Positions 6,386-59,383 of a DNA stretch of 64,000 nucleotides are shown piece after piece (within the stretch, counting starts at the first letter, position 1; each line of letters opens with the position of its first letter). The DNA is from Argopecten irradians (taxonomy: Eukaryota > Mollusca > Bivalvia > Pectinida > Pectinidae). The translations under genes were made by a program, and so were the position numbers. The stretch is from assembly GCF_041381155.1 (NCBI RefSeq), contig NC_091143.1, positions 27,715,331 through 27,779,330 on the forward strand, read 5' to 3'. The notes under the pieces are model-generated. The model searched no databases. It worked only from the letters and a program-made list of their open reading frames with translations, and was not told where the DNA came from.

Positions 6386-6773
6386 TTTTTTGCCTTACCA
6401 TACAACTGGTATTTTCCTTTTCAAATATAGCCAGTTCCAATTGCAACATAATGTACTTTCTTTCTAGCTGCATCCAAGATGATGTATATTATACCTCTAG
6501 ATATATTAACAACTGTTGACTAAAGTATCCTTTATTCTTTTTTATTGGCAAAATTATCTTTGTAGACTTAAATCATCCATCGATGTAAGCATGTGAATGA
6601 TGCGCAAAGATATCGAGATATCTTAAATTGATTTCGTTTTTCATTCTCGTGTTATTTCTGGTCCAATTCTAGAGGTATCTTCTTCGTTCTACAAAGAAGA
6701 GTCTATTTTGAGATAACAGAATATTCTCGGTCTACCCTTTGCTCAACTAATTATAACACAAATAACTACAACA

Positions 6774-7622
6774 ATGATCTCAAAATATTTGCAACTTTTA
6801 ACATTACGATCTTTCATTATAGGACTCCAGACCAGCAGGATGTTGCGGCCATTGATAAAGCTGTTACGAATAGTGATAACGATGTGTCTGATGTACGTCC
6901 TTTATCTGATCTTCAAGTTTCCGCTGTTTGGTCCATTCTTAAAGGAGTTATTGTTGTCAAAGAAACGGCGGCCGGGAGAATACTTGGACACTGATTTGAC
7001 CCCGGACACATTACGTCACTTGTGGACATGTACATACTCGGACATGTACTATAAACAAGCATTCCGGAACGTCCCCGCGCCGAACCCGGAAGTAATTGTT
7101 CCTCAAGACAGTACTATAAAACAGTTATTGGATTTCCAAATAAAAAATAGACCTTTGATTTTAAATTTTGGAAGCTGTTCATGACCCGTGTTTATGACGT
7201 CATTGCAACAATTTAAAAGCATTGTACGAGAATATAATGACATAGCTGACTTTTTGATTATTTATATCCGAGAGGCGCATCCGTTGGATGAATGGAACAT
7301 CACGGGACACCAATACTCCCATCTCCGTCAACACGTGGACCTACAGGACCGGATGTTAGCCGCGTCTTTGTTAGATAAACACGAAATTCCGTGCCCCGTG
7401 GTAGTGGACCCTATGGATAACAAAACCACTCTTCTCTACTCCGCTGTCCCTAAACGTCTCTACGTCATACAGGACGGCGTTGTTCAATATGCTGGTGGAA
7501 TGGGAACACATAGGTATCGCCTGAAAGACATCGACCGCTGGCTGTTTAAATATAAGAAACAGTTGAACTCACAAACGATGACAAATGATAACGAAACGAC
7601 AGACGCTCCGAAACAAGATTAA
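6774..7622 (+). CDS. DIO: Iodothyronine deiodinase, selenoprotein, single exon (UGA at 7182-7184 read as Sec)
   Basis: The protein removes iodine from iodothyronines by reductive dehalogenation and is usually membrane-anchored with a cytosolic or luminal thioredoxin-like domain. Reading the UGA at 7182-7184 as selenocysteine gives 282 residues, close to the family's 250-300. Residues about 28-50 form a hydrophobic signal anchor. The active site is NFGSCSU with Sec at 137, followed by PVF. The conserved downstream block YIREAHPLDEW spans 164-174, and PCPVVVDPMDN, KRLYVIQDG and THRYRLKDIDRWL follow. The start at 6774 is the first ATG after an in-frame TAA at 6714. There are no introns, and the frame continues unbroken for 145 codons after the UGA, which argues strongly against a pseudogene. 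Vertebrate type (1, 2 or 3) cannot be assigned; mollusc genes form their own group. Confidence 0.96.
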
Positions 7623-17100: not shown

Positions 17101-20100
17101 CGGCTGTTTTGTGAATGAGATATTTCCTCAAATTTCAGAAGCCGATATTTTCTTTCAACTGCTTAAAAAACGCATCACTACCAAAATCAGAGGTGATGAG
17201 AGTGATATTATTTTGTTGAACACAACATTGTCCGCATTGCCAGAAGACAGAAGATATTTCTGAGACAGACACAGAGATGCTGAGAGTAAGATGATTTTGA
17301 TGAACTTGATGAGCCTGCATTGCTAGATTTATATAGATAGTTTAATGAAACAGATATTGTTTTGAAACACTGCTGAGGAATATTCATCAATATATGACCA
17401 TTGAATTGGTTTCATTTTTCTTTACATTTTCAACTTTACTGACCATAAGGAACGAGTGTGACCACCCAAAAGTAGCAGAGGCGGCTTAACTACTTCTAAA
17501 CCATGAACTTTGTGGATATAAAGGACCGCATCCAGTTCATAGCAAGGAGCTTATGGCCCTAAACATTCCAAATGATCAGGTCACGAGGCCACTAGGTTGC
17601 ATCATCCGCACATGTTTATAACCTCCTTCGACATGGTACAGTCGGGTAATGCTACCATCAGGAGACAACCTAGCGAAGTATTATAAAAGATCACAAACAA
17701 GAAATGTATCATCTGACAAAAGGTCACATTTTAAAAGTATTTGTCACCAAAGCATATTGTTTAACCCGCCAGGAAAAAACACATAGGGGCTTGACTTCAT
17801 AGATCTCGTTAAAACAGAATCTCCAAGGGATACAAACAGGCTGAGGAAAAGATTAATTCATGGAACGGGTTATGCCTGCATCTCCAAGAGAAACATAAAG
17901 CATGAAAAAAAGCGATGATTTTGTACATCTTGTTAAAACGGAATACTAACGAGAACCAAAGGTTGAGATAGAGATAAAGAGAAAATTTCTTGGAACTGGG
18001 TAAGCCACAAGGACCGGTACAACATGGATATTGTGAATGAGATATTTCCTGGAATTTCTTAAGCCCAATTTTCTAAAACTCCATTAAGATCGCATGGCCA
18101 ACAGAAACGGGAATGTTGAAAATGAGTTTGGAAAACAGTGATGTTGTGAATAAGGTATTTCCTGACATTCCAAAGCCAATATAGTCTTGAACACATTAAG
18201 ACTGCATCAACAGGATATTCATATACATATACCGAAGATGAAATTATCACGCTGAATTTATTAATCTCGCATCGAAAAAAAACGGCTGTTTTGTGAATGA
18301 GATATTTCCTCAAATTTCAGAAGCCGATATTTTCTTTCAACTGCTTAAAAAACGCATCACTACCAAAATCAGAGGTGATGAGAGTGAGATTATTTTGTTG
18401 AACACAACATTGTCCGCATTGCCAGAAGACAGAAGATATTTCTGAGACAGACACAGAGATGCTTAGAGTAAGATGATTTTGATGAACTTGATGAGCCTGC
18501 ATTGCTAGATTTGTATAGATAGTTTAATGAAACAGATATTGTTTTGAAACACTGCTGAGGAATATTCATCAATATATGACCATTGAATTGGTTTCATTTT
18601 TCTTTACATTTTCAACTTTACTGACCATAAGGAACGAGTGTGACCACCCAAAAGTAGCAGAGGCGGCTTAACTACTTCTAAACCATGAACTTTGTGGATA
18701 TAAGGGACCGCATCCAGTTCATAGCAAGGAGCTTATGGCCCTAAACATTCCAAATGATCAGGTCACGAGGCTACTAGGTTGCAACATCCGCACATGTTTA
18801 TAACCTCCTTCGACATGTACAGTCGGGTAATGCTACCATCAGGAGACAACCTAGCGAAGTATTTAAAAGATCACAAACAAGAAATGTATCATCTGCTGAC
18901 AAAAGGTCACATTTTAAAAAGTATATGTCACCAAAGCATATTGTTTAACCCGCCAAGAAAAAAACAGGGGCTTGACTTCATAGATCTCGTTAAAACACAA
19001 TCTCCAAGGGATACAAACAGGCTGAGGAAAAGATTAATTCATGGAACGGGTTATGCCTGCATCTCCAAGAGAAACATAAAGCATGAAAAAGCGATGATTT
19101 TGTACATCTTGTTAAAACGGAATACTAACGAGAACCAAAGGTTGAGATAGAGAAAAAGAGAAAATTTCTTGGAACTGGGTAAGCCACAAGGACCGGTACA
19201 ACATGGATATTGTGAATGAGATATTTCCTGGAATTCCTTAAGCCAAATTTTCTATAACTCCTTTTAGATCGCATGGCCAATAGAAACAGGAATGCTAAAA
19301 ATGAGGTTGGGAAACAGTGATGTTGTGAATAAGGTATTTCCTCCTGACATCCCAAAGCCAATATAGTCTTTAACGCATTTAGCGTGCATCAACAGGATAT
19401 CCATATACATATACCGAAGATGAAATGATTACGCTGAGTTTATTAATATCGCATCGAAAAAAGAAACGGCTGTTTTGTGAATGAGATATTTCCTGAAATT
19501 TCAGAAGCCGATATTTTCTTTCAACTGCTTCAAAACGCATCACTACCAAAATCAGAGGTGATGAGAGTGAGAGTATTCTGTTGAACACAACATTGTCCGC
19601 ATTGCCAGAAGACAGAAGATATTTCTGAGACAGACACAGAGATGCTGAGAGTAAGATGATTTTGATGAACTTGATAAGCCTGCATTGCTAGATTTATATA
19701 GATAGTTTAATGAAACAGATATTGTTTTGAAACACTGCTGAGGAATATTCATCAATATATGACCATTGAATTGGTTTCATTTTTCTTTACATTTTCAACT
19801 TTACTGACCATAAGGAACGAGTGTGACCACCCAAAAGTAGCAGAGGCGGCTTAACTACTTCTAAACCATGAACTTTGTGGATATAAGGGACCGCATCCAG
19901 TTCATAGCAAGGAGCTTATGGCCCTAAACATTCCAAATGATCAGGTCACGAGGCCACTAGGTTGCAACATCCGCACATGTTTATAACCTCCTTCGACATG
20001 TACAGTCGGGTAATGCTACCATCAGGAGACAACCTAGCGAAGTATTTAAAAGATCACAAACGAGAAATGTATCGTCTGACAAAAGGTCACATTTTTACAA

Positions 20101-23100
20101 GTATTTGTCACCAAAGCATATTGTTTAACCCGCCAGGAAAAACACATAGGGGCTTGACTTCATAGATCTCGTTAAAACAGAATCTCCAAGGGATACAAAC
20201 AGGCTGAGGAAAAGATTAATTCATGGAACGGGTTATGCCTGCATCTCCAAGAGAAACATAAAGCATGAAAAAGCGATGATTTTGTACATCTTGTTAAAAC
20301 GGAATACTATGGTGAAACAGAGGTTGAGATAGAGAAAAAGAGAAATTTCTTGGAACTGGGTAAGCCACAAGGACCGGTACAACATGGATATTGTGAATGA
20401 GATATTTCCTGGAATTCCTTAAGCCCAATTTTCTAAAACTCCATTAAGATCGCATGGCCAACAGAAACGGGAATGTTGAAAATGAGGTTGGGAAACAGTG
20501 ATGTTGTGAATAAGGTATTTCCTGACATTCCAAAGCCAATATAGTCTTGAACACATTAAGACTGCATCAACAGGATATTCATATACATATACCGAAGATG
20601 AAATTATTACGCTGAATTTATTAATCTCGCATCGAAAAAAGAAACGGCTGTTTTGTGAATGAGATATTTCCTCAAATTTCAGAAGCCGATATTTTCTTTC
20701 AACTGCTTAAAAAACGCATCACTACCAAAATCAGAGGTGATGAGAGTGAGATTATTTTGTTGAACACAACATTGTCCGCATTGCCAGAAGACAGAAGATA
20801 TTTCTGAGACAGACACAGAGATGCTTAGAGTAAGATGATTTTGATGAACTTGATGAGCCTGCATTGCTAGATTTGTATAGATAGTTTAATGAAACAGATA
20901 TTGTTTTGAAACACTGCTGAGGAATATTCATCAATATATGACCATTGAATTGGTTTCATTTTTCTTTACATTTTCAACTTTACTGACCATAAGGAACGAG
21001 TGTGACCACCCAAAAGTAGCAGAGGCGGCTTAACTACTTCTAAACCATGAACTTTGTGGATATAAGGGACCGCATCCAGTTCATAGCAAGGAGCTTATGG
21101 CCCTAAACATTCCAAATGATCAGGTCACGAGGCTACTAGGTTGCAGCATCCGTACATGTTTATAACCTCCTTCAACATGTACAGTCGAGTAATGCTACCA
21201 TCAGGAGACAACCTAGCGAAGTATTATAAAAGATCACAAACAAGAAATGTATCATCTGCTGACAAAAGGTCACATTTTAAAAAGTATATGTCACCAAAGC
21301 ATATTGCTTAACCCGCCAAGAAAAACACAGGGGCTTGACTTCATAGATCTCGTTAAAACAGAATCTCCAAGGGATACAAACAGGCTGAGGAAAAGATTAA
21401 TTCATGGAACGGGTTGTGCCTGGATCTCCAAGAGAAACACAAAGCATGAAAAAAGCGATGATTTTGTACATCTTGTTAAAACGGAATACTAACGAGAACC
21501 AAAGGTTGAGATAGAGAAAAAGAGAAAATTTCTTGGAACTGGGTAAGCCACAAGGACCGGTACAACATGGATATTGTGAATGAGATATTTCCTGGAATTC
21601 CTTAAGCCCAATTTTCTATAACTCCTTTTAGATCGCATGGCCAATAGAAACAGGAATGCTAAAAATGAGGTTGGGAAACAGTGATGTTGTGAATAAGGTA
21701 TTTCCTCCTGACATCCCAAAGCCAATATAGTCTTTAACGCATTTAGCGTGCATCAACAGGATATCCATATACATATACCGAAGATGAAATGATTACGCTG
21801 AGTTTATTAATATCGCATCGAAAAAAGAAACGGCTGTTTTGTGAATGAGATATTTCCTGAAATTTCAGAAGCCGATATTTTCTTTCAACTGCTTCAAAAC
21901 GCATCACTACCAAAATCAGAGGTGATGAGAGTGAGAGTATTCTGTTGAACACAACATTGTCCGCATTGCCAGAAGACAGAAGATATTTCTGAGACAGACA
22001 CAGAGATGCTGAGAGTAAGATGATTTTGATAAACTTGATGAGCCTGCATTGCTAGATTTATATTGATAGTTTAATGAAACAGATATTGTTTTGAAACACT
22101 GCTGAAGAATATTCATCAATTATGTGACCATTGAATTGGTTTCATTTTTCTTTACATTTTCAACTTTACTGACCATAAGGAACGAGTGTGACCACCCAAA
22201 AGTAGCAGAGGCGGCTTAACTACTTCTAAACCATGAACTTTGTGGATATAAGGGACCGCATCCAGTTCATAGCAAGGAGCTTATGGCCCTAAACATTCCA
22301 AATGATCAGGTCACGAGGCCACTAGGTTGCAACATCCGCACATGTTTATAACCTCCTTCGACATGTACAGTCGGGTAATGCTACCATCAGGAGACAACCT
22401 AGCGAAGTATTATAAAAGATCACAAACGAGAAATGTATCGTCTGACAAAAGGTCACATTTTTACAAGTATTTGTCACCAAAGCATATTGTTTAACCCGCC
22501 AGGAAAAACACATAGGGGCTTGACTTCATAGATCTCGTTAAAACAGAATCTCCAAGGGATACAAACAGGCTGAGGAAAAGATTAATTCATGGAACGGGTT
22601 ATGCCTGCATCTCCAAGAGAAACATAAAGCATGAAAAAGCGATGATTTTGTACATCTTGTTAAAACGGAATACTAAGGAGAAACAGAGGTTGAGATAGAG
22701 AAAAAGAGAAAATTTCTTGGAACTGGGTAAGCCACAAGGACCGGTACAACATGGATTTTGTGAATGAGATATTTCCTGGAGTTTCTGAAGCCTAATTTTC
22801 TAAAACTCCATTAAGATCACATGGGCAACAGAAACGGGAATGTTGAAAATGAGTTTGGGAAACAGTGATGTTGTGAATAAGGTATTTCCTGACATTCCAA
22901 AGCCAATATAGTCTTGAACACATTAAGACTGCATCAACAGGATATTCATATACATATACCGAAGATGAAATTATTACGCTGAATTTATTAATCTCGCATC
23001 GAAAAAGAAACGGCTGTTTTGTGAATGAGATATTTCCTCAAATTTCAGAAGCCGATATTTTCTTTCAACTGCTTAAAAACGCATCACTACCAAAATCAGA

Positions 23101-50204: not shown

Positions 50205-53200
50205 ATGGAAGAAGGAGAATTTTCTAATATTGAAGATGAACTTGAAAATGTCAAGAAGGGAGACACCATTCTGCATCTTAATTACAAAGGACTGAAAAGT
50301 CTTCCACCATGTTTGCTGACAGATATTTGCTACAGAAATCTGAAGATTATTTATGCTAAGAGGAACCGTCTTATGTGTTTGGTAAAAAAATAAATAAATA
50401 AATGTGGTACATGTGCATGCATACAGTATATATGCCATATGTGCAATATATTTTGTTGTGAAAAGAAATGAAAATGTTATCATGACTTTATAGTGATAGA
50501 GATCGACTCTTTGGTCACAACGATAAATTGTACATGAAAGTTTTCCCCAACCAGGATCGGATCTATATATATCCCTTTATTCTCTTCACTAACTTAGGTA
50601 TACATTTACATGCACAAAAAAATATCTTTAATTAAAGGAATTGCCTAAACAGAAACAGCTTTTAATTCTTAAATGGAAATGCAAAACATGCATGATTGAT
50701 GTATAATATTGTAAAAGTTAATACTATACACTTAATTATCATCACCTTTTGAACAATCTGAATGAATCTTTATTATTACTAATAGTACATGTAACATACT
50801 AGATTACACAGTGAATCTTGCATTTGTTTGGTGTACGTTGTTTCCTCACTTTTATTGAGGAAATGTAGTGGTTCTTTCATAAATTAATGAATTAATTAAA
50901 ACTTTATTTTAATTTACATGTTCTGATTATTCTTGAATCAGTCATGCTATTAACTGCCTGATTTTGTTAAAAAGATAGTCGCTATATGTACTGTATGTGT
51001 CATTATTCAATTATCTCCCCTTCGAATACCAATAATGTTTTATTTATTTAGAACTTTTAATAAAAGTTTGGTAAATAAAGTTCTCAGTCAATGCTTTAAA
51101 ATGTTTTTGAATAAAATGTATTAATTTTTGTTGTCATACATATGTATCTATAAAAATATTTCAGATTAGGGTAGAAATGTGTATAAAACATTTTTGACAT
51201 TCTACCCAATATTTACTTTCAGCCAGAATACTTGAATCAGCTTTTTAATTTGGTTGAGTTGTAAGTATATGCTTATATTTGAAAACATAACTATTAGTAA
51301 GCTTATATTGTGATATTTTTAAGGATATCTTTATTTTGATAACTACCAATGATATGCTTGAATATCAATTTGAAGAATAAAATTGAAAAAGCATCAGGTT
51401 ATAATCTAACAAGGGCCATTTTTAACAAATAATTAATCTGAAATAACATTGTAAAATTAAAAAAGTCATTGTCTTTAAATAGGTTCAAATCTTTTTCTTA
51501 TACATGTAACTTTGTTGTTTCAGATATTTGCCAAGCAACAATATCAAGACTATACCAGATGGTAAGAGTTATTCCATTTTGTTTAGATACAGTATAAGCA
51601 TGGTATATTTATTAATTCTGTATGCTCAATGTACTACCACATTGTGGTACCGTATTCGACCCATTAAGTACCCCTGTCGATATATAAGCAACCTCTACTC
51701 CTTTTTGAGGTCTGAATTTCACTTAAAATACAAACTAAAACTATGAAAACTGTCTTTCTTTCTCTATTTGATTTCTTTTGTAAATTCATTAATTGGCTTA
51801 CACTGTGCAGTATTGTTGTGAAAGATTAGCCCAAATCTAGTCTTATTTTATGCCCCCTCATTTTTCATTTTTAACTGCCTTGGATAATTATTGGATTAAA
51901 TACATAATTCAAAATGAGTTTAAGAAATTTAAAGCACTTATAAATATTGAATTAAAAACTGAAAAGGGTACATACAATGTAGTAGTCACTGTTTTGCATC
52001 ACTCTTGGAATTGATTTTGCAGGCAGTACATTTCAGATATATGTAACTTAAATTTTATCAGGAATGCTAATTGGTAAATGTATGTTTATATTAATACAAA
52101 AGAGTATTCGGTCTTTGTATATAACAAAGTTACCCCACTTGCAGGTATAGGTACCATTGTGACGTCATTGTTTTGTGAGCAAAAATTATGTCATTGAAAA
52201 GTGTGTTGTTAAGCTCACAAACACACGTCATCACTTGTAATCAGTACCTACATGTACCCACAAGGGATATGCAAAGACGGAATATCTAATTGATAATCTG
52301 CAAAAAAGAATGGTACACCTGTGGTCCAGTAGATACATATACTCCTTAACTATAATGATTCTCATATTCTTTTTTCTAGGGATCTGTGATTTAAGGAACC
52401 TAGAATCCTTAAACCTGTGTGATAATGAGTTGAATCATTTACCTGCTGTTATTGGCAAGTTAAAAAAACTACAGAAACTACAAGTCTCCGTAAATAAGCT
52501 TAAATGTCTACTGTCATGTAAGTAAATGAATTAAAAAATAGAAAGTCATGCTAGTTAATGGTCATTTCTCCTCAGTCTGCTAGTGTAACCATGTTTTTGG
52601 GCCTAATAATTTTTTATTTAAAATTATTGTACTTTTGTCTTTTTAAAAACAAGTAAACTGATTGAAAGTGTTGTTAGACTTTAAAGCAGTATCCTTATCT
52701 ATTATATATATAGAGATGTATTAAATATTTAAATGTTTGTCTTCACAACGTCAAAATGTTAATAAAATTGATGTCATATAATTATAAAAGCAGGATTCAT
52801 GAATATTTTTAAATCATTTCAAAGTTTATATTGAGAGATAGATGAAAATAAATTTGAATTATAAGTATTCTTTAGCTAATACAAAAATGTCTTTCAATAT
52901 TTTCTTTCTTTAAACAAGGTATTGGAGATCTGTGTAATCTGAAGACATTAGAGCTGATGAGGAATGACCTGTCCACTTTACCGGTCAGTTTGTGTCAATG
53001 TGAGAGGCTAGAGACTCTAAACTTAGACTACAACAGATTGACCACTCTTCCTCGTCATTTCTGGAGATTGACAAGCTTGTCGGAACTCTCAGTCTGCGGA
53101 AACAACTTGATCAATTTACCACAAAGTAATATTCTAAAGCCAAGTCTGTACTAGGTATTGGGGGATAAGCTTTAGGGTGTCAATTTAAAAAAAAAACATT

Positions 53201-56200
53201 TTGAAAATGAAAATATAAGTTTGTAATGTATTTTCCCTGAACAATGAAAAGTAACAATTCAAATAATCTTTACCAAAACAATTGTTTGATTTAAGCCAAT
53301 TGAGTATTAAAAAAGACTATTATGTAAAAACTATATTTAATAAGTTCTCAATCCCTGTCATCATTATAATTAATTACTGATCATGTAATTTATATTATAA
53401 TCTAATACATGGACAGTATTTTGCATGAAATACTTTTAGGTGCCAGATTTACACTAAAACAGATATATTATATGCATGTAGTTTTTTTTTTCTGAAAAGT
53501 GAAAATATCATCTTTACATCTTATAAATAATTATTAGATAATCTCCTGACCATTAAAACACAATGACATGTGAATTGAAAGTTCTAAAAGTATTTGGTAA
53601 GTCCTCAGAATTCCTTATTGCAACCCATAGAATCACGTAATTAACACTAAAGATAGAAGAAAAATATTGAATTCTACTTATCTTGCAATATTCCAACACG
53701 ATTCTATTGCTGTCAGACATTATAACATTATAATATACAGTGTATATAATCAATGACATGTTTCTTGTATAAATTTTATGTTATGAATTTCAACACTTTC
53801 CTGATGTCCAGGACTTTCACTAAAGTGCATATTTGCTAAACTTTGATGGTTTGTTGTACGTAGCTCTGTTGGTTTGTTACAGCCTGTTTTTTTTGTACAA
53901 GCTCTGTTAGTTTGTTACAGCCTGTTTGCTGTATAAGCTCTGTTGGTTTGTTACAGCCTGTTTGCTGTATAAGCTCCGTTGGTTTGTTACAGCCTGTTTG
54001 CTGTATAAGCTCTGTTGGTTTGTTACAGCCTGTTTGCTGTATAAGCTCTGTTGGTTTGTTACAGCCTGTTTGCTGCATAAGCTCTGTTGGTTTGTTACAA
54101 CCTGTTTGCTGAATAAGCTCTGTTGGTTTGTTACAGCCTGTTTGCTGTATAAGCTCTGTTGGTTTGTTACAGCCTGTTTGCTGTATAAGCTCTGTTGGTT
54201 TGTTACAGCCTGTTTGCTGTATAAGCTCTGTTGGTTTGTTACAGCCTGTTTGCTGTATAAGCTCTGTTGGTTTGTTACAGCCTGTTTGCTGTATAAGCTC
54301 TGTTGGTTTGTTACAGCCTGTTTGCTGTATAAGCTCTGTTGGTTTGTTACAGCCTGTTTGCTGCATAAGCTCCGTTGATTTGTTACAGCCTGTTTGCTGC
54401 ATAAGATCCGTTGGTTTGTTACAGCCTGTTTGCTTATAAGCTTTGTTGGTTTGTTACAGCATGTTTGCTGTATAAGCTCTGTTGGTTTGTTACAGCCTGT
54501 TTGCTGTATAAGCTCTGTATGTTTGTTACAGCCTGTTTGCTTATAAGCTCTGTGGGTTTGTTACAGCATGTTTGCTGTATAAGCTCTGTTATTTTGTTAA
54601 AGCCTGTTTGCTGTATAAGCTCTGTTGGTTTGTTATAGCTTGTTTGCTGTATAAGCTCTGTTGGTTTGTTACAGCCTGTTTGCTGTATAAGCTCTGTTAG
54701 TTTGTTACAGCCTGTTTACTGTATAAGCTCTCTTAATTTGTTACAGCCTGTTTCTGTAAAAGCTCTCTTAGTTTGTTACAGCCTGTTTGCTGAATAAGCT
54801 CTGTTGGTTTGTTACTGCCTGTTTGCTGTATAAGCTCTGTTGGTTTGTTACAGCCTGTTTGCTGCATAAGCTCCGTTGATTTGTTACAGCCTGTTTGCTG
54901 CATAAGATCCGTTGGTTTGTTACAGCCTGTTTGCTTATAAGCTTTGTTGGTTTGTTACAGCATGTTTGCTGTATAAGCTCTGTTGGTTTGTTACAGCCTG
55001 TTTGCTTATAAGCTTTGTTGGTTTGTTACAGCATGTTTGCTGTATAAGCTCTGTTGGTTTGTTACAGCCTGTTTGCTGTATAAGCTCTGTTGGTTTGTTA
55101 CAGCCTGTTTGCTGTATAAGCTCTGTTGGTTTGTTACAGCCTGTTTGCTGCATAAGCTCCGTTTATTTGTTACAGCCTGTTTGCTTATAAGCTCTGTTGG
55201 TTTGTTACAGCATGTTTGCTGTATAAGCTCTGTTATTTTGTTAAAGCCTGTTTGCTTATAAGCTTTGTTGGTTTGTTACAGTATGTTTGCTGTATAAGCT
55301 CTGTTGGTTTGTTAAAGCCTGTTTGCTGTATAAGCTCTGTTGGTTTGTTACAGCCTGTTTGCTTATAAGCTCTGTGGGTTTGTTACAGCATGTTTGCTGT
55401 ATAAGCTCTGTTGGTTTGTTACAGCCTGTTTGCTGTATAAGCTCTGTTGGTTTGTTACAGCCTGTTTGCTGTATAAGTAAGCTCTGTTGGTTTGTTACAG
55501 CCTGTTTGCTGCATAAGCTCCGTTGGCTTGTTACAGCATGTTTAATGCATAATCTCTGTTGGTTTGTTACAACCTGTTTGCTGAATAAGCTCTGTTGGTT
55601 TGTTACAGCTTGTTTGCTGTATAAGCTCTGTTGGTTTGTTACAGCATGTTTGCTGTATAATTTCTGTTGGTTTGTTTCAGCCTGTTTGCTATATAAGCTC
55701 TGTTAGTTTGTTATAGCTTGTTTGCTGTATAAGCTCTGTTGGTTTGTTACAGCCTGTTTGCTGTATAAGCTCTGTTGGTTTGTTACAGCCTGTTTGCTGT
55801 ATAAGCTCTGTTGGTTTGTTACAGCCTGTTTGCTGTATAAGCTCTGTTGGTTTGTTACAGCCTGTTTGCTGCATAAGCTCCGTTGATTTGTTACAGCCTG
55901 TTTGCTGCATAAGATCCGTTGGTTTGTTACAGCCTGTTTGCTTATAAGCTTTGTTGGTTTGTTACATCATGTTTGCTGTATAAGCTCTGTTGGTTTGTTA
56001 AAGCCTGTTTGCTGTATAAGCTCTGTTGGTTTGTTACAGCCTGTTTGCTTATAAGCTCTGTGGGTTTGTTACAGCATGTTTGCTGTATAAGCTCTGTTAT
56101 TTTGTTAAAGCCTGTTTGCTGTATAAGCTCTGTTGTTGTTTGTTATAGCTTGTTTGCTGTATAAGCTCTGTTGGTTTGTTACAGCCTGTTTGCTGTATAA

Positions 56201-59200
56201 GCTCTCTTAATTTGTTACAGCCTGTTTCTGTATAAGCTCTCTTAGTTTTGTTACAGCCTGTTTGCTGTATAAGCTCTGTTGGTTTGTTACAGCCTGTTTG
56301 CTGTATAAGCTCTGTTGGTTTGTTACAGCCTGTTTGCTGTATAAGCTCTCTTAGTTTGTTACAGCCTGTTTGCTGTATAAGCTCTGTTGGTGTGTAACAG
56401 CCTGTTTGCTGTATAAACTCTGTTTGTGTGTTACAGCCTTTGCCAGTAAAGGATCCTCCAGTAATCTGCGATGTCTGTTCGTGGACAAGAACCCAGCTCT
56501 TCATGTTCTTCCTTTGTCGCTGATACATGTAGATATTGGAAATTTTCAGAGGTAGGAGTTAAATGAAACCAGGGTCTGAATGATTTCTACTACAGTCAAA
56601 TATATAAAGACCAATCAAAGAGACAAGACAAAGGGTTTTCATAACAAAATGGTCATTATTTATACATATGTATAGTAAATTGTGTTGAAATTAACTGTTT
56701 GGAGCCCTAAGAAAATTGTCTTAGTAGGCAGCTACTCTTTGAGGAAGCGGTTAATTGTTACTAAGGCAGGTTTCACTGTTAAAAACATATGCTGAAAATA
56801 TAATATTATAATATTTTGTTACACTGCAAGAGTAAGGTTAATTGCTACAATAATATATTTGTTTGTTTGTTTGTTTGATTAATTAACGTCCTATCAACAG
56901 CTATGGTCATGTAAGGACAGCCTTCCATGCATGCAGTGTGTTGCGTGTTACTGTTGTACGAGGTGCGTGTTTTTTTGGAGATATTCATGTATATTCATGT
57001 TGTGTCTTCTTGTATAGTGGAACTGTTGCCCTTGTTATCTAACAATTAAAGGATTGTTATATTGCATTTATTGGAGATATAAATGCAATCTGGGTGGCAG
57101 ATTAATAGAATAGCGCCCGTTAGGGCAAAATGGCAAAATGTAAATATAGTGCTATATCACTGAAGCATGCCGCCGAAGACACCAAGCAACACACCCACCT
57201 GGTCACATTATACTGACAACGGGCGAACCAGTCATCACACTCCCTGTATTCTGAGCGCTAAGCAAGAGCAGAAACTACCACTTTTATTGACTATTGTGTC
57301 TCGGCCAGGGGACAGAACCCAAAGCCTTCCTCACAGGGGCGAACACTCAACTCAAGGCCAAAAGTGAGGCATGCTAAGGGAGGCATAAGGAAAGATAAAG
57401 TCAGTTAGGAAGAAGAGAAAAGATAAGATCCTAAATTTAGTCGCCTTTTACGATCATGCAATAGGGGCAGCAGGTACAATTCAAACGCCCTACCTACAGG
57501 GCCAACAATAGTATACTTTTTGAATTGTGCTAATTATTGCCATAAATACAATGGTATACTTTTTGAATTTATGGCAATAATTAGCACCCTGATAACTCAT
57601 ATCTGTATCAGATTCTGTAATAATACAAAAATGATAAAATAAAAACTATCACCAAACTTTTAGTTTGTAAATTACATTATTGAATAATATATTATTTTAC
57701 ATGGAAGTATGTACATAATCATGTAATAGCACAAGAATGATAGAATTGAAAGTGCCGGTGTAGCATGGTATTTTGAATCATGGTAAATACCATACTACAC
57801 CGGTAATAGTTGGAGTCATGTAATCACTGACTCACTACTAAAATCAAATGAAGTAGATAAGTTATATGATAGAGTTCATGTGATAACAAAAGTCTCAGCC
57901 AACAATTACTAGATTATCTCCCCCTTGCTTGAAACTTGCATGCACATTCAGAAAGTGTGTAGAAACTAAAACCATACACCAAGTCATATGTTTTTAATTT
58001 TACTATAGTTCTATCAATATAAATTAATTTCATATGTTACATTCATTCCTATTGGTTAAAGCTTTTAGGTTATTTTTCCATAGAATGAAAGAATTGCACA
58101 GTCATTGGACAAACTGAACTAATAGATAACAAATCAAAGCGCCACGATCAGGTTTGTAATATCGTAAATGTAAGGAAAAGAACAGGAATTTATGCCTTTT
58201 GGTACCTCATTGAATCATTCAAATTTAATTATAAGCATTGTTCTCTCTAATGGACATCCTTGGGTCTATGAAGAATGTCCTTCCCTTTTTTTGTCTATGA
58301 CTTCATAAACCCAAAACATATTGAGAATAATGCTTAAATAGATTGCAGATAGCAAGTTTGTTCCGATTCTTTTAAGTGGCGTTTCTATTTTCAGTTGTCG
58401 TAGGAATGACCCTCTTGGAGTGTTGCCAGGTGCAGTTGAGCTTGTGGTGCCTTATAAGGAGATATTGGTTCCCATAGTAATGCCTCCAGAAGTCAGGAAT
58501 ATCACTACCCCATGGAAAAGTGTCCCATCCTTACAGGAGCTTGGTCTTAGAGCAACTGGGGCATTAAGGTCAAAGTTCATGGGTAAGTTCATTTCTGTGA
58601 CATGTGATGATAAGGTGTTGAATATATATCATTGATGATGTTTTCAAAATATATACAGAGGAATATCTTTATTTCCGAAAAAGTTACACCAACCCTGTCT
58701 TTGAATGTTTTAATCTAATTAAAAAAGATAATACTTTTATGGTATAAATATAAAAAAAATCTGTATTTTATTCTTTATAATAAGTCTTCTTATGCTTTAA
58801 ATATGTATTTGCAGCAACTATTCGTCTAAAATCTCTTTTGTAACTGAAATTGGGACTTTCAGATAAAAAATTTCACTTATCCACTTAACAATTTAACAAT
58901 AACAAAATATCATACATTAATATTTGAAGTGTATTTATTTCCACTTTTTAAAAAGTAAGTATGATTTTTTTTCTCTTTTTTGTATTGACTTGTTATTTTT
59001 GTTATGCGTATAATTATTATTATTCATTTTGAATACTTTTACAATTGCTATTCATAATGCAAAAATTCTTGTTTATAGTTGCAAATGCAGAGCATGTACT
59101 AAGGTGAATTTTAAAATTTGCTGTTTCAGATTTTAAAGATTTTGATGAAATGCTGGATTCTCTACCATGTAACCTGAAATCCCTTTTACTTGATCCGACG

Positions 59201-59383
59201 GCTTTTTGTCAGTCATGTCTCCAAGAAGTGTATGTGTCAGCCCTGCCAGAAGTAGTTCTGGACCAATCCATATTTTATTTAGGGTTTTGCTGTTCTGTTA
59301 AGTGTGCTGTACAGATTAGCTTGATGTACTCCACAAACTTTGGAATTAACATTGTGTATCCTTTATGCATGCCTGTCATCTAG
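50205..59383 (+). CDS. LRRC28: LRRC28-like leucine-rich repeat protein, 8 coding exons, 384 residues
   Basis: Cytosolic LRR protein of uncertain function. Exons: 50205-50381, 51223-51260, 51524-51561, 52380-52517, 52919-53125, 56437-56551, 58395-58582 and 59130-59383; all phases agree (1155 nt). About nine leucine-rich repeats occupy residues 20-250 (for example NLVELYLPSNNIKTIP, LETLNLDYNRLTTLPRHFWR, LSELSVCGNNLINLP). The C-terminal part carries paired cysteines, CQSC (327-330) and CCSVKC (354-359), in the positions of the CxxC and YCCSTQC motifs I recall for vertebrate LRRC28 (367 residues). The start ATG follows a splice acceptor at 50181, so the 5' UTR is spliced. Intron 5 contains a 2.6-kb minisatellite that abuts exon 6. 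Distinguishing it from other short LRR proteins rests on this cysteine-rich tail. Confidence 0.88.
53126..53844 (+). other. LRRC28 intron 5, part before the minisatellite
   Basis: AT-rich intron sequence after the exon 5 donor (ACAAA, then GTAATA). No other feature is seen. Confidence 0.5.
53845..56436 (+). repeat. 36-bp minisatellite (about 70 units) ending in the exon-6 splice acceptor of LRRC28
   Basis: The unit is 36 bp: AAGCTCTGTTGGTTTGTTACAG followed by CCTGTTTGCTGTAT. Most units are intact; variants with one deleted block (GCTTATAAG), GCATAAG, GATCCG or CTCTCTTA occur in recurring groups. Each unit contains a pyrimidine-biased tract plus TTACAG, then CC, which is the same context as the real exon 6 acceptor (TTTGTGTGTTACAG, then CCTTTGCC) at 56436/56437. 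Because 36 is a multiple of 3, long repetitive open frames appear on both strands (12-residue periods); these are by-products. The plus strand is strongly G+T-rich. Confidence 0.95.
56859..57510 (-). repeat. Dispersed SINE-like repeat, most complete copy D (reverse)
   Basis: Read on the minus strand, it begins GGCCCTGTAGGTAGGGCGTT near 57503, runs through the segment common to copies A-C, and ends (CAAA)n at about 56859-56880. It thus contains the head missing elsewhere. A half copy of the 60.7-kb palindromic element (TAACAATTAAAGGATTGTTA through GATTAATAGAATAGCGCCCG, about 57041-57115) interrupts or replaces part of it. It lies in LRRC28 intron 6. Confidence 0.8.
57511..57587. repeat. Hairpin with 20-bp perfect arms
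   Basis: GTGCTAATTATTGCCATAAA (57527-57546) is the reverse complement of 57568-57587. GTATACTTTTTGAAT is directly repeated at 57511 and 57554. It is a small palindromic insertion in LRRC28 intron 6, just after copy D. Confidence 0.75.
57755..57803. repeat. Short hairpin (CCGGTGTAG arms)
   Basis: CCGGTGTAGCATGGTATTT and AAATACCATACTACACCGG pair with one mismatch around a ~10-nt loop. It is compact enough to be a small MITE relic or a structured RNA element within LRRC28 intron 6. Confidence 0.65.

Follow-up and report, generated by a model that had tools for sequence, protein, structure and literature searches.

A 72-unit minisatellite abutting the exon 6 acceptor of an LRRC28-like gene in the bay scallop, a likely mirage-type element

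The window analyzed is a stretch of 64,000 nucleotides from the forward strand of Argopecten irradians contig NC_091143.1 (positions 27,715,331 to 27,779,330); it contains no N bases, and positions below are counted from its first letter. An LRRC28-like gene was modeled in the window, and its fifth intron is occupied mainly by a tandem array that ends at the 3′ splice site. The gene, the intron and the array are laid out as follows.

50205..59383, + strand: LRRC28-like gene with eight coding exons, 384 amino acids (gene model, protein match and LRR domains)
50205-50381, 51223-51260, 51524-51561 and 52380-52517, + strand: LRRC28 exons 1-4 (gene model)
52919-53125, 56437-56551, 58395-58582 and 59130-59383, + strand: LRRC28 exons 5-8 (gene model)
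53126..56436, + strand: intron 5, 3311 bp, 78% of it array, donor AAA/GTAATA (gene model)
53846..56436, + strand: minisatellite of 72 units, mostly of 36 bp (TRF and alignment to a cyclic consensus)
56437..56551, + strand: exon 6, phase 1, encoding (T)FASKGSSSNLRCLFVDKNP..., with a TFAxKG start as in Pecten maximus and Ylistrum balloti

All introns of the eight-exon model are bounded by GT and AG and their phases are consistent. The translation is 100% identical over 384 amino acids to the LRRC28-like protein of A. irradians at NCBI (P0001), a reference that is itself an automatic gene model. As the two proteins are identical, the annotation uses the last unit of the array as acceptor, with exon 6 starting at 56437. 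The protein shares 83% identity with that of P. maximus and 79% with that of Y. balloti, and the residues at the junction of exons 5 and 6, LPQTFAxKG, are common to the three species. Thus, the exon model, the protein identity and the shared junction residues together define intron 5 as 53126-56436. When the best candidates in the genome were scored, the LRRC28 exons matched best at a single place, which is the locus in the window; the other genome matches were to weaker leucine-rich proteins, the best of which showed 35% identity (E 2.6e-18), with values of 32-41% among the matches examined.

Elsewhere in the window, a forward-strand open reading frame at 6717-7622 is similar to iodothyronine deiodinases (Pfam T4_deiodinase, E 1.2e-56) and consists of two parts; a single in-frame TGA, located after NFGSCS, connects them, an arrangement known from selenocysteine deiodinases. 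Neither a SECIS element nor any other Rfam family was found in the window at the Rfam gathering score. On the reverse strand, two copies of a 102-amino acid open reading frame (19379-19687 and 21743-22051) are located 2364 bp apart and are identical at 307 of 309 bases; the pair is a recent local duplication. A further reverse-strand open reading frame of 177 amino acids (1717-2250) resembles by eye part of a retroelement endonuclease and produced no Pfam match at E 0.001.

The array in intron 5 was called by TRF at 53862-56439 with a period of 36, 71.7 copies, 91% matches and a score of 4249. Alignment to a cyclic consensus divided the 2591 bp between 53846 and 56436 into 72 units, in good agreement with the approximately 70 copies of a 36-bp repeat described in an earlier note on this DNA. 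The units are 36 bp long in 58 cases and 35 bp in ten, the remainder being of 38 bp (two), 37 bp (one) and 40 bp (one). The consensus unit, CCTGTTTGCTGTATAAGCTCTGTTGGTTTGTTACAG, is present exactly in 20 units, and 35 distinct versions occur among the 72. Fifty-eight units end with TTACAG and 68 with AG, 56 start with CC, and GTATAAG is present in 44. Five-unit blocks are duplicated within the array, units 14-18 recurring as units 28-32 and units 12-16 as units 54-58, at spacings of 14 and 42 units, respectively. These recurring blocks are pointers to past turnover in which the array grew by local block duplication. The mean number of differences from the consensus is 4.3 in the first three units and 2.3 in the last three, compared to 1.7 in the interior. 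Three of the 36 positions of the last unit (56401-56436) depart from the consensus, and exon 6 follows directly; as the annotated protein also begins exon 6 at 56437, the earlier assertion that the working acceptor is the final, slightly diverged unit was borne out. The unit has a dimer-like composition of two diverged 18-mers (18+18), with a score that was reached by none of 300 shuffles and by 1% of 300 36-mers from the window.

The distribution of the repeat was examined genome-wide. A query of two units yielded 36 matches from a single candidate place, all in the array. Similarly, a 19-mer spanning the acceptor was found at 42 places exactly and at 19 with one mismatch, again all in the array; with two mismatches, nine places on other contigs were listed. 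Within three mismatches the forward strand gave 196 places, 70 of which are the array, compared to 138 for a control pattern, and the reverse strand gave an excess of 435 compared to 146. A dispersed satellite or mobile repeat was rejected, the reverse-strand excess notwithstanding, because no other locus was detected by the two-unit query or by the 19-mer with no or one mismatch.

The background frequency of tandem arrays was estimated with TRF, which was run on 20 stretches of contigs C1 and C12 totaling 200 kb; arrays with a period of 10-200 and five or more copies were counted. The 20 rows obtained, which correspond to about 18 distinct arrays after merging of two overlapping rows (L023) and two adjoining rows (L038), covered about 11% of the sampled bases. 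The sampled stretches (L019-L038) are dense in long minisatellites, including ~53 copies of a 44-mer (L038) and 47 copies of an 87-mer (L023). Splice motifs showed no supported enrichment in the sampled arrays: GTRAGT was present in 3 of 20 units with 1.07 expected (P 0.07) and an acceptor-like motif in 1 of 20 with 1.23 expected. At this density, an intron with a long minisatellite is ordinary in the bay scallop and some arrays must meet splice sites by chance. The number of chance arrays that end within 1 bp of an acceptor is tens to about a hundred if a total of 200,000 introns is assumed. The intron 5 repeat may therefore be an ordinary intronic minisatellite that reached the exon by chance and whose edge was fixed by purifying selection on the exon, an explanation that these base rates favor in principle but that is unlikely in this instance: the pyrimidine tract and AG of the unit line up with those of the working acceptor, and the identity in register continues for three nucleotides, CCT, into exon 6, for which the chance odds are 1 in 64. 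The register also implies that a functional acceptor was copied many times, however the array arose.

Judged by this register, the array likely originated at the acceptor. Further similarity between the tail of the unit and the start of the exon was assessed by gapped matching under four scorings. Depending on the scoring, 6 to 26 of 4000 AG contexts from the window matched at least as well, as did 5 to 12 of the 249 contexts with an initial CC and 2 to 12% of shuffles. An exon-derived tail is sure for CCT only; any further resemblance to the beginning of exon 6 is suggestive, and the 18+18 make-up of the unit could explain the same bases equally well. The earlier view of the array as an amplified splice acceptor accordingly holds for the fit of the unit register to a working acceptor, but its exon-derived part extends demonstrably to CCT alone.

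The behavior of the array as a set of potential acceptors depends particularly on its last two units, in which the following features were distinguished.

56365..56436, + strand: stretch that would add 12 codons (from 56401) or 24 codons (from 56365) if AG 56400 or AG 56364 were used
56365..56400, + strand: penultimate unit (71), ending TAACAG, with the lowest acceptor score of the 68 unit ends
56394..56398, + strand: GTAAC, the only TAAC in the array, with a candidate branch point A at 56397
56401..56436, + strand: last unit (72), the working acceptor, in which TATAAG is changed to TATAAA; no AG lies between 56400 and 56436

The array contains 144 AGs including the real one, hence 143 upstream, and 68 of the AGs are unit ends. 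Acceptors were compared by an approximate score with generic weights that are not specific to scallop. By this measure the real site scored 4.04, and among the 68 unit ends 12 were higher, 36 were tied and 19 were lower. The six other acceptors of LRRC28 spanned 1.94 to 9.83, and so many decoys equal real sites on the same generic score. Fifty-six of the 144 AGs share the reading frame of exon 6. The exon is left open only from 56364, 56400 and 56436; for 141 of the 143 upstream AGs, translation would meet a stop either in the inserted sequence or in exon 6 itself. As the unit corresponds to 12 codons, the two nearest decoys, at -36 and -72, remain in frame and open and would add 12 or 24 codons; the frameshifting isoforms proposed in the earlier note were therefore rejected for these sites. 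The array might be functional, its decoys either adding 12 or 24 residues to alternative LRRC28 isoforms or throttling LRRC28 through unproductive splicing. The open frames of the two nearest decoys and the parity of decoy scores with that of the real acceptor are compatible with this possibility, as is the human ABCA7 donor-site VNTR, which alters splicing in a length-dependent manner (PMC5954066). Nevertheless, the proposal is very improbable, as nearly all of the upstream AGs bring in a stop, the -36 site is the weakest of the unit ends (0.04, the next being 0.61), the peptide that would be added (TCLLYKLCLCVTA) is hydrophobic, cysteine-rich and absent from the aligned relatives, and comparable elements termed mirages are reported not to disturb splicing (PMC3087553, PMC3902484). 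A splicing buffer or U2AF sink, as also suggested in the earlier note, would be a speculative role for the array; the amphioxus cases reportedly splice normally. A 10-nt microexon, CCTGTTTGCT, which the earlier note had seen in each unit and which retains the intact layout CAG/CCTGTTTGCT/GTATAAG in 24 of 72 units, was rejected as scarcely credible on account of its short length, which would also shift the frame, and of its weak donor, GCT/GTATAA. In 29 of 29 copies this donor agrees with U1 at 3 of 9 consensus positions, compared to 5 to 8 of 9 for the seven LRRC28 donors.

The tetranucleotide TAAC occurs once in the 2591-bp array, within the GTAAC whose A at 56397 is 39 nt upstream of G 56436 and only 3 nt upstream of G 56400. 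The T-to-A change that creates TAAC is the same one that makes AG 56400 the weakest unit end. Furthermore, 36 nt free of AG precede the terminal AG at just two of the 68 unit ends, the real site and unit 51 (AG 55680), whereas the corresponding interval is 19 nt at 59 of the 68. The first AG after a branch point is preferred, and changes that generate AG in this zone disturb splicing (PMC7317903). From the features of the last two units we infer that they may mark out the true acceptor. GTAAC falls short of a complete yTnAy motif, none of which is present within the last 60 nt, and better-scoring branch-point-like strings, for example CTTAT, are found in some other units. At two of the six other LRRC28 acceptors the AG-free zone is as short as 18 and 26 nt, and thus a short zone is no bar to use. 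Divergence of the end units is frequent in minisatellites even when selection plays no part, and the pattern in the last two units was picked after it had been noticed rather than set beforehand. A more ambitious reading, to which we attach only a small probability, is that selection for splice fidelity amid decoys has shaped the last two units and that copy number tunes LRRC28 splicing in steps of 12 codons. One substitution would then have produced both a branch point and a crippled adjoining AG, and another the AG-free zone. If true, the locus would be a natural record of one acceptor kept distinguishable from 67 near-identical competitors.

The best explanation overall, which we regard as probable, is that the array is a single-locus boundary minisatellite of mirage type at the 3′ end of intron 5 in which changes in the last two units set the true site apart. 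The array most likely is passive. The pyrimidine tract and AG of the intron may have been its starting material, amplified through replication slippage or unequal exchange, which would leave the 67 upstream unit-end AGs as passive decoys. The true site would be marked by the better branch point GTAAC 39 nt upstream, the crippled AG at 56400 beside GTAAC would be too close for use, and the loss of AG between 56400 and 56436 would aid the true site. Splicing presumably joins 53125 to 56437 as a rule. If it leaked to -36 or -72, 12 or 24 extra codons would result, and leakage to any other upstream AG would bring a premature stop and probably mRNA decay. If this reading is right, intron 5 lends itself directly to testing how a 3′ splice site is chosen, with 68 near-identical acceptors and one annotated user. 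The acceptors differ by few bases, which affect the branch point, the neighboring AG and the AG-free zone.

The intron 5 array is likely a mirage-type element, a kind already described but rare. Amphioxus mirages are tandem units over a splice boundary, and splicing is reported to be normal (PMC3087553, PMC3902484). The scallop array also consists of tandem repeats at an intron-exon boundary, with 72 units ending at 56436/56437, and splice signals are present in many but not all units, 68 of the 72 ending with AG. In both cases AG or GT signals are kept in many units, the authentic boundary is the last copy and the edge units escape homogenization. The amphioxus BflGb6 gene likewise multiplies the 3′ end of an intron, and the 36-bp unit falls inside the 10-72 bp range of the amphioxus Adh3 mirage (PMC3902484). 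However, the scallop array is in a mollusc and has 72 units whereas BflGb6 has 6 and 3; the 150-160 bp units of BflGb6 plainly extend into the exon whereas for the scallop unit this is sure for CCT only; and RT-PCR results are on record for amphioxus whereas the scallop array was analyzed from sequence (PMC3902484). Literature searches by topic, on acceptor minisatellites, found no report of the intron 5 array. On the human side, the VNTR in intron 18 of ABCA7 has a 25-bp unit present in 12 to about 427 copies (PMC5954066). Like the scallop array, it abuts an exon, contains the working splice site, here in its first bases, and carries a potential splice site in each unit. In contrast, it is on the donor side rather than the acceptor side, and one retained unit shifts the frame in ABCA7 but would equal 12 codons in the scallop gene. 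The minisatellite of human IFI6 (G1P3, 6-16; Turri 1995) also has units that supply alternative splice sites, although its repeats are donor sites whose use in mRNA is reported (cited in PMC4526556). If the reading given here is right, this large molluscan example would extend splice-boundary minisatellites beyond amphioxus and human to a mollusc with a genome rich in tandem arrays.
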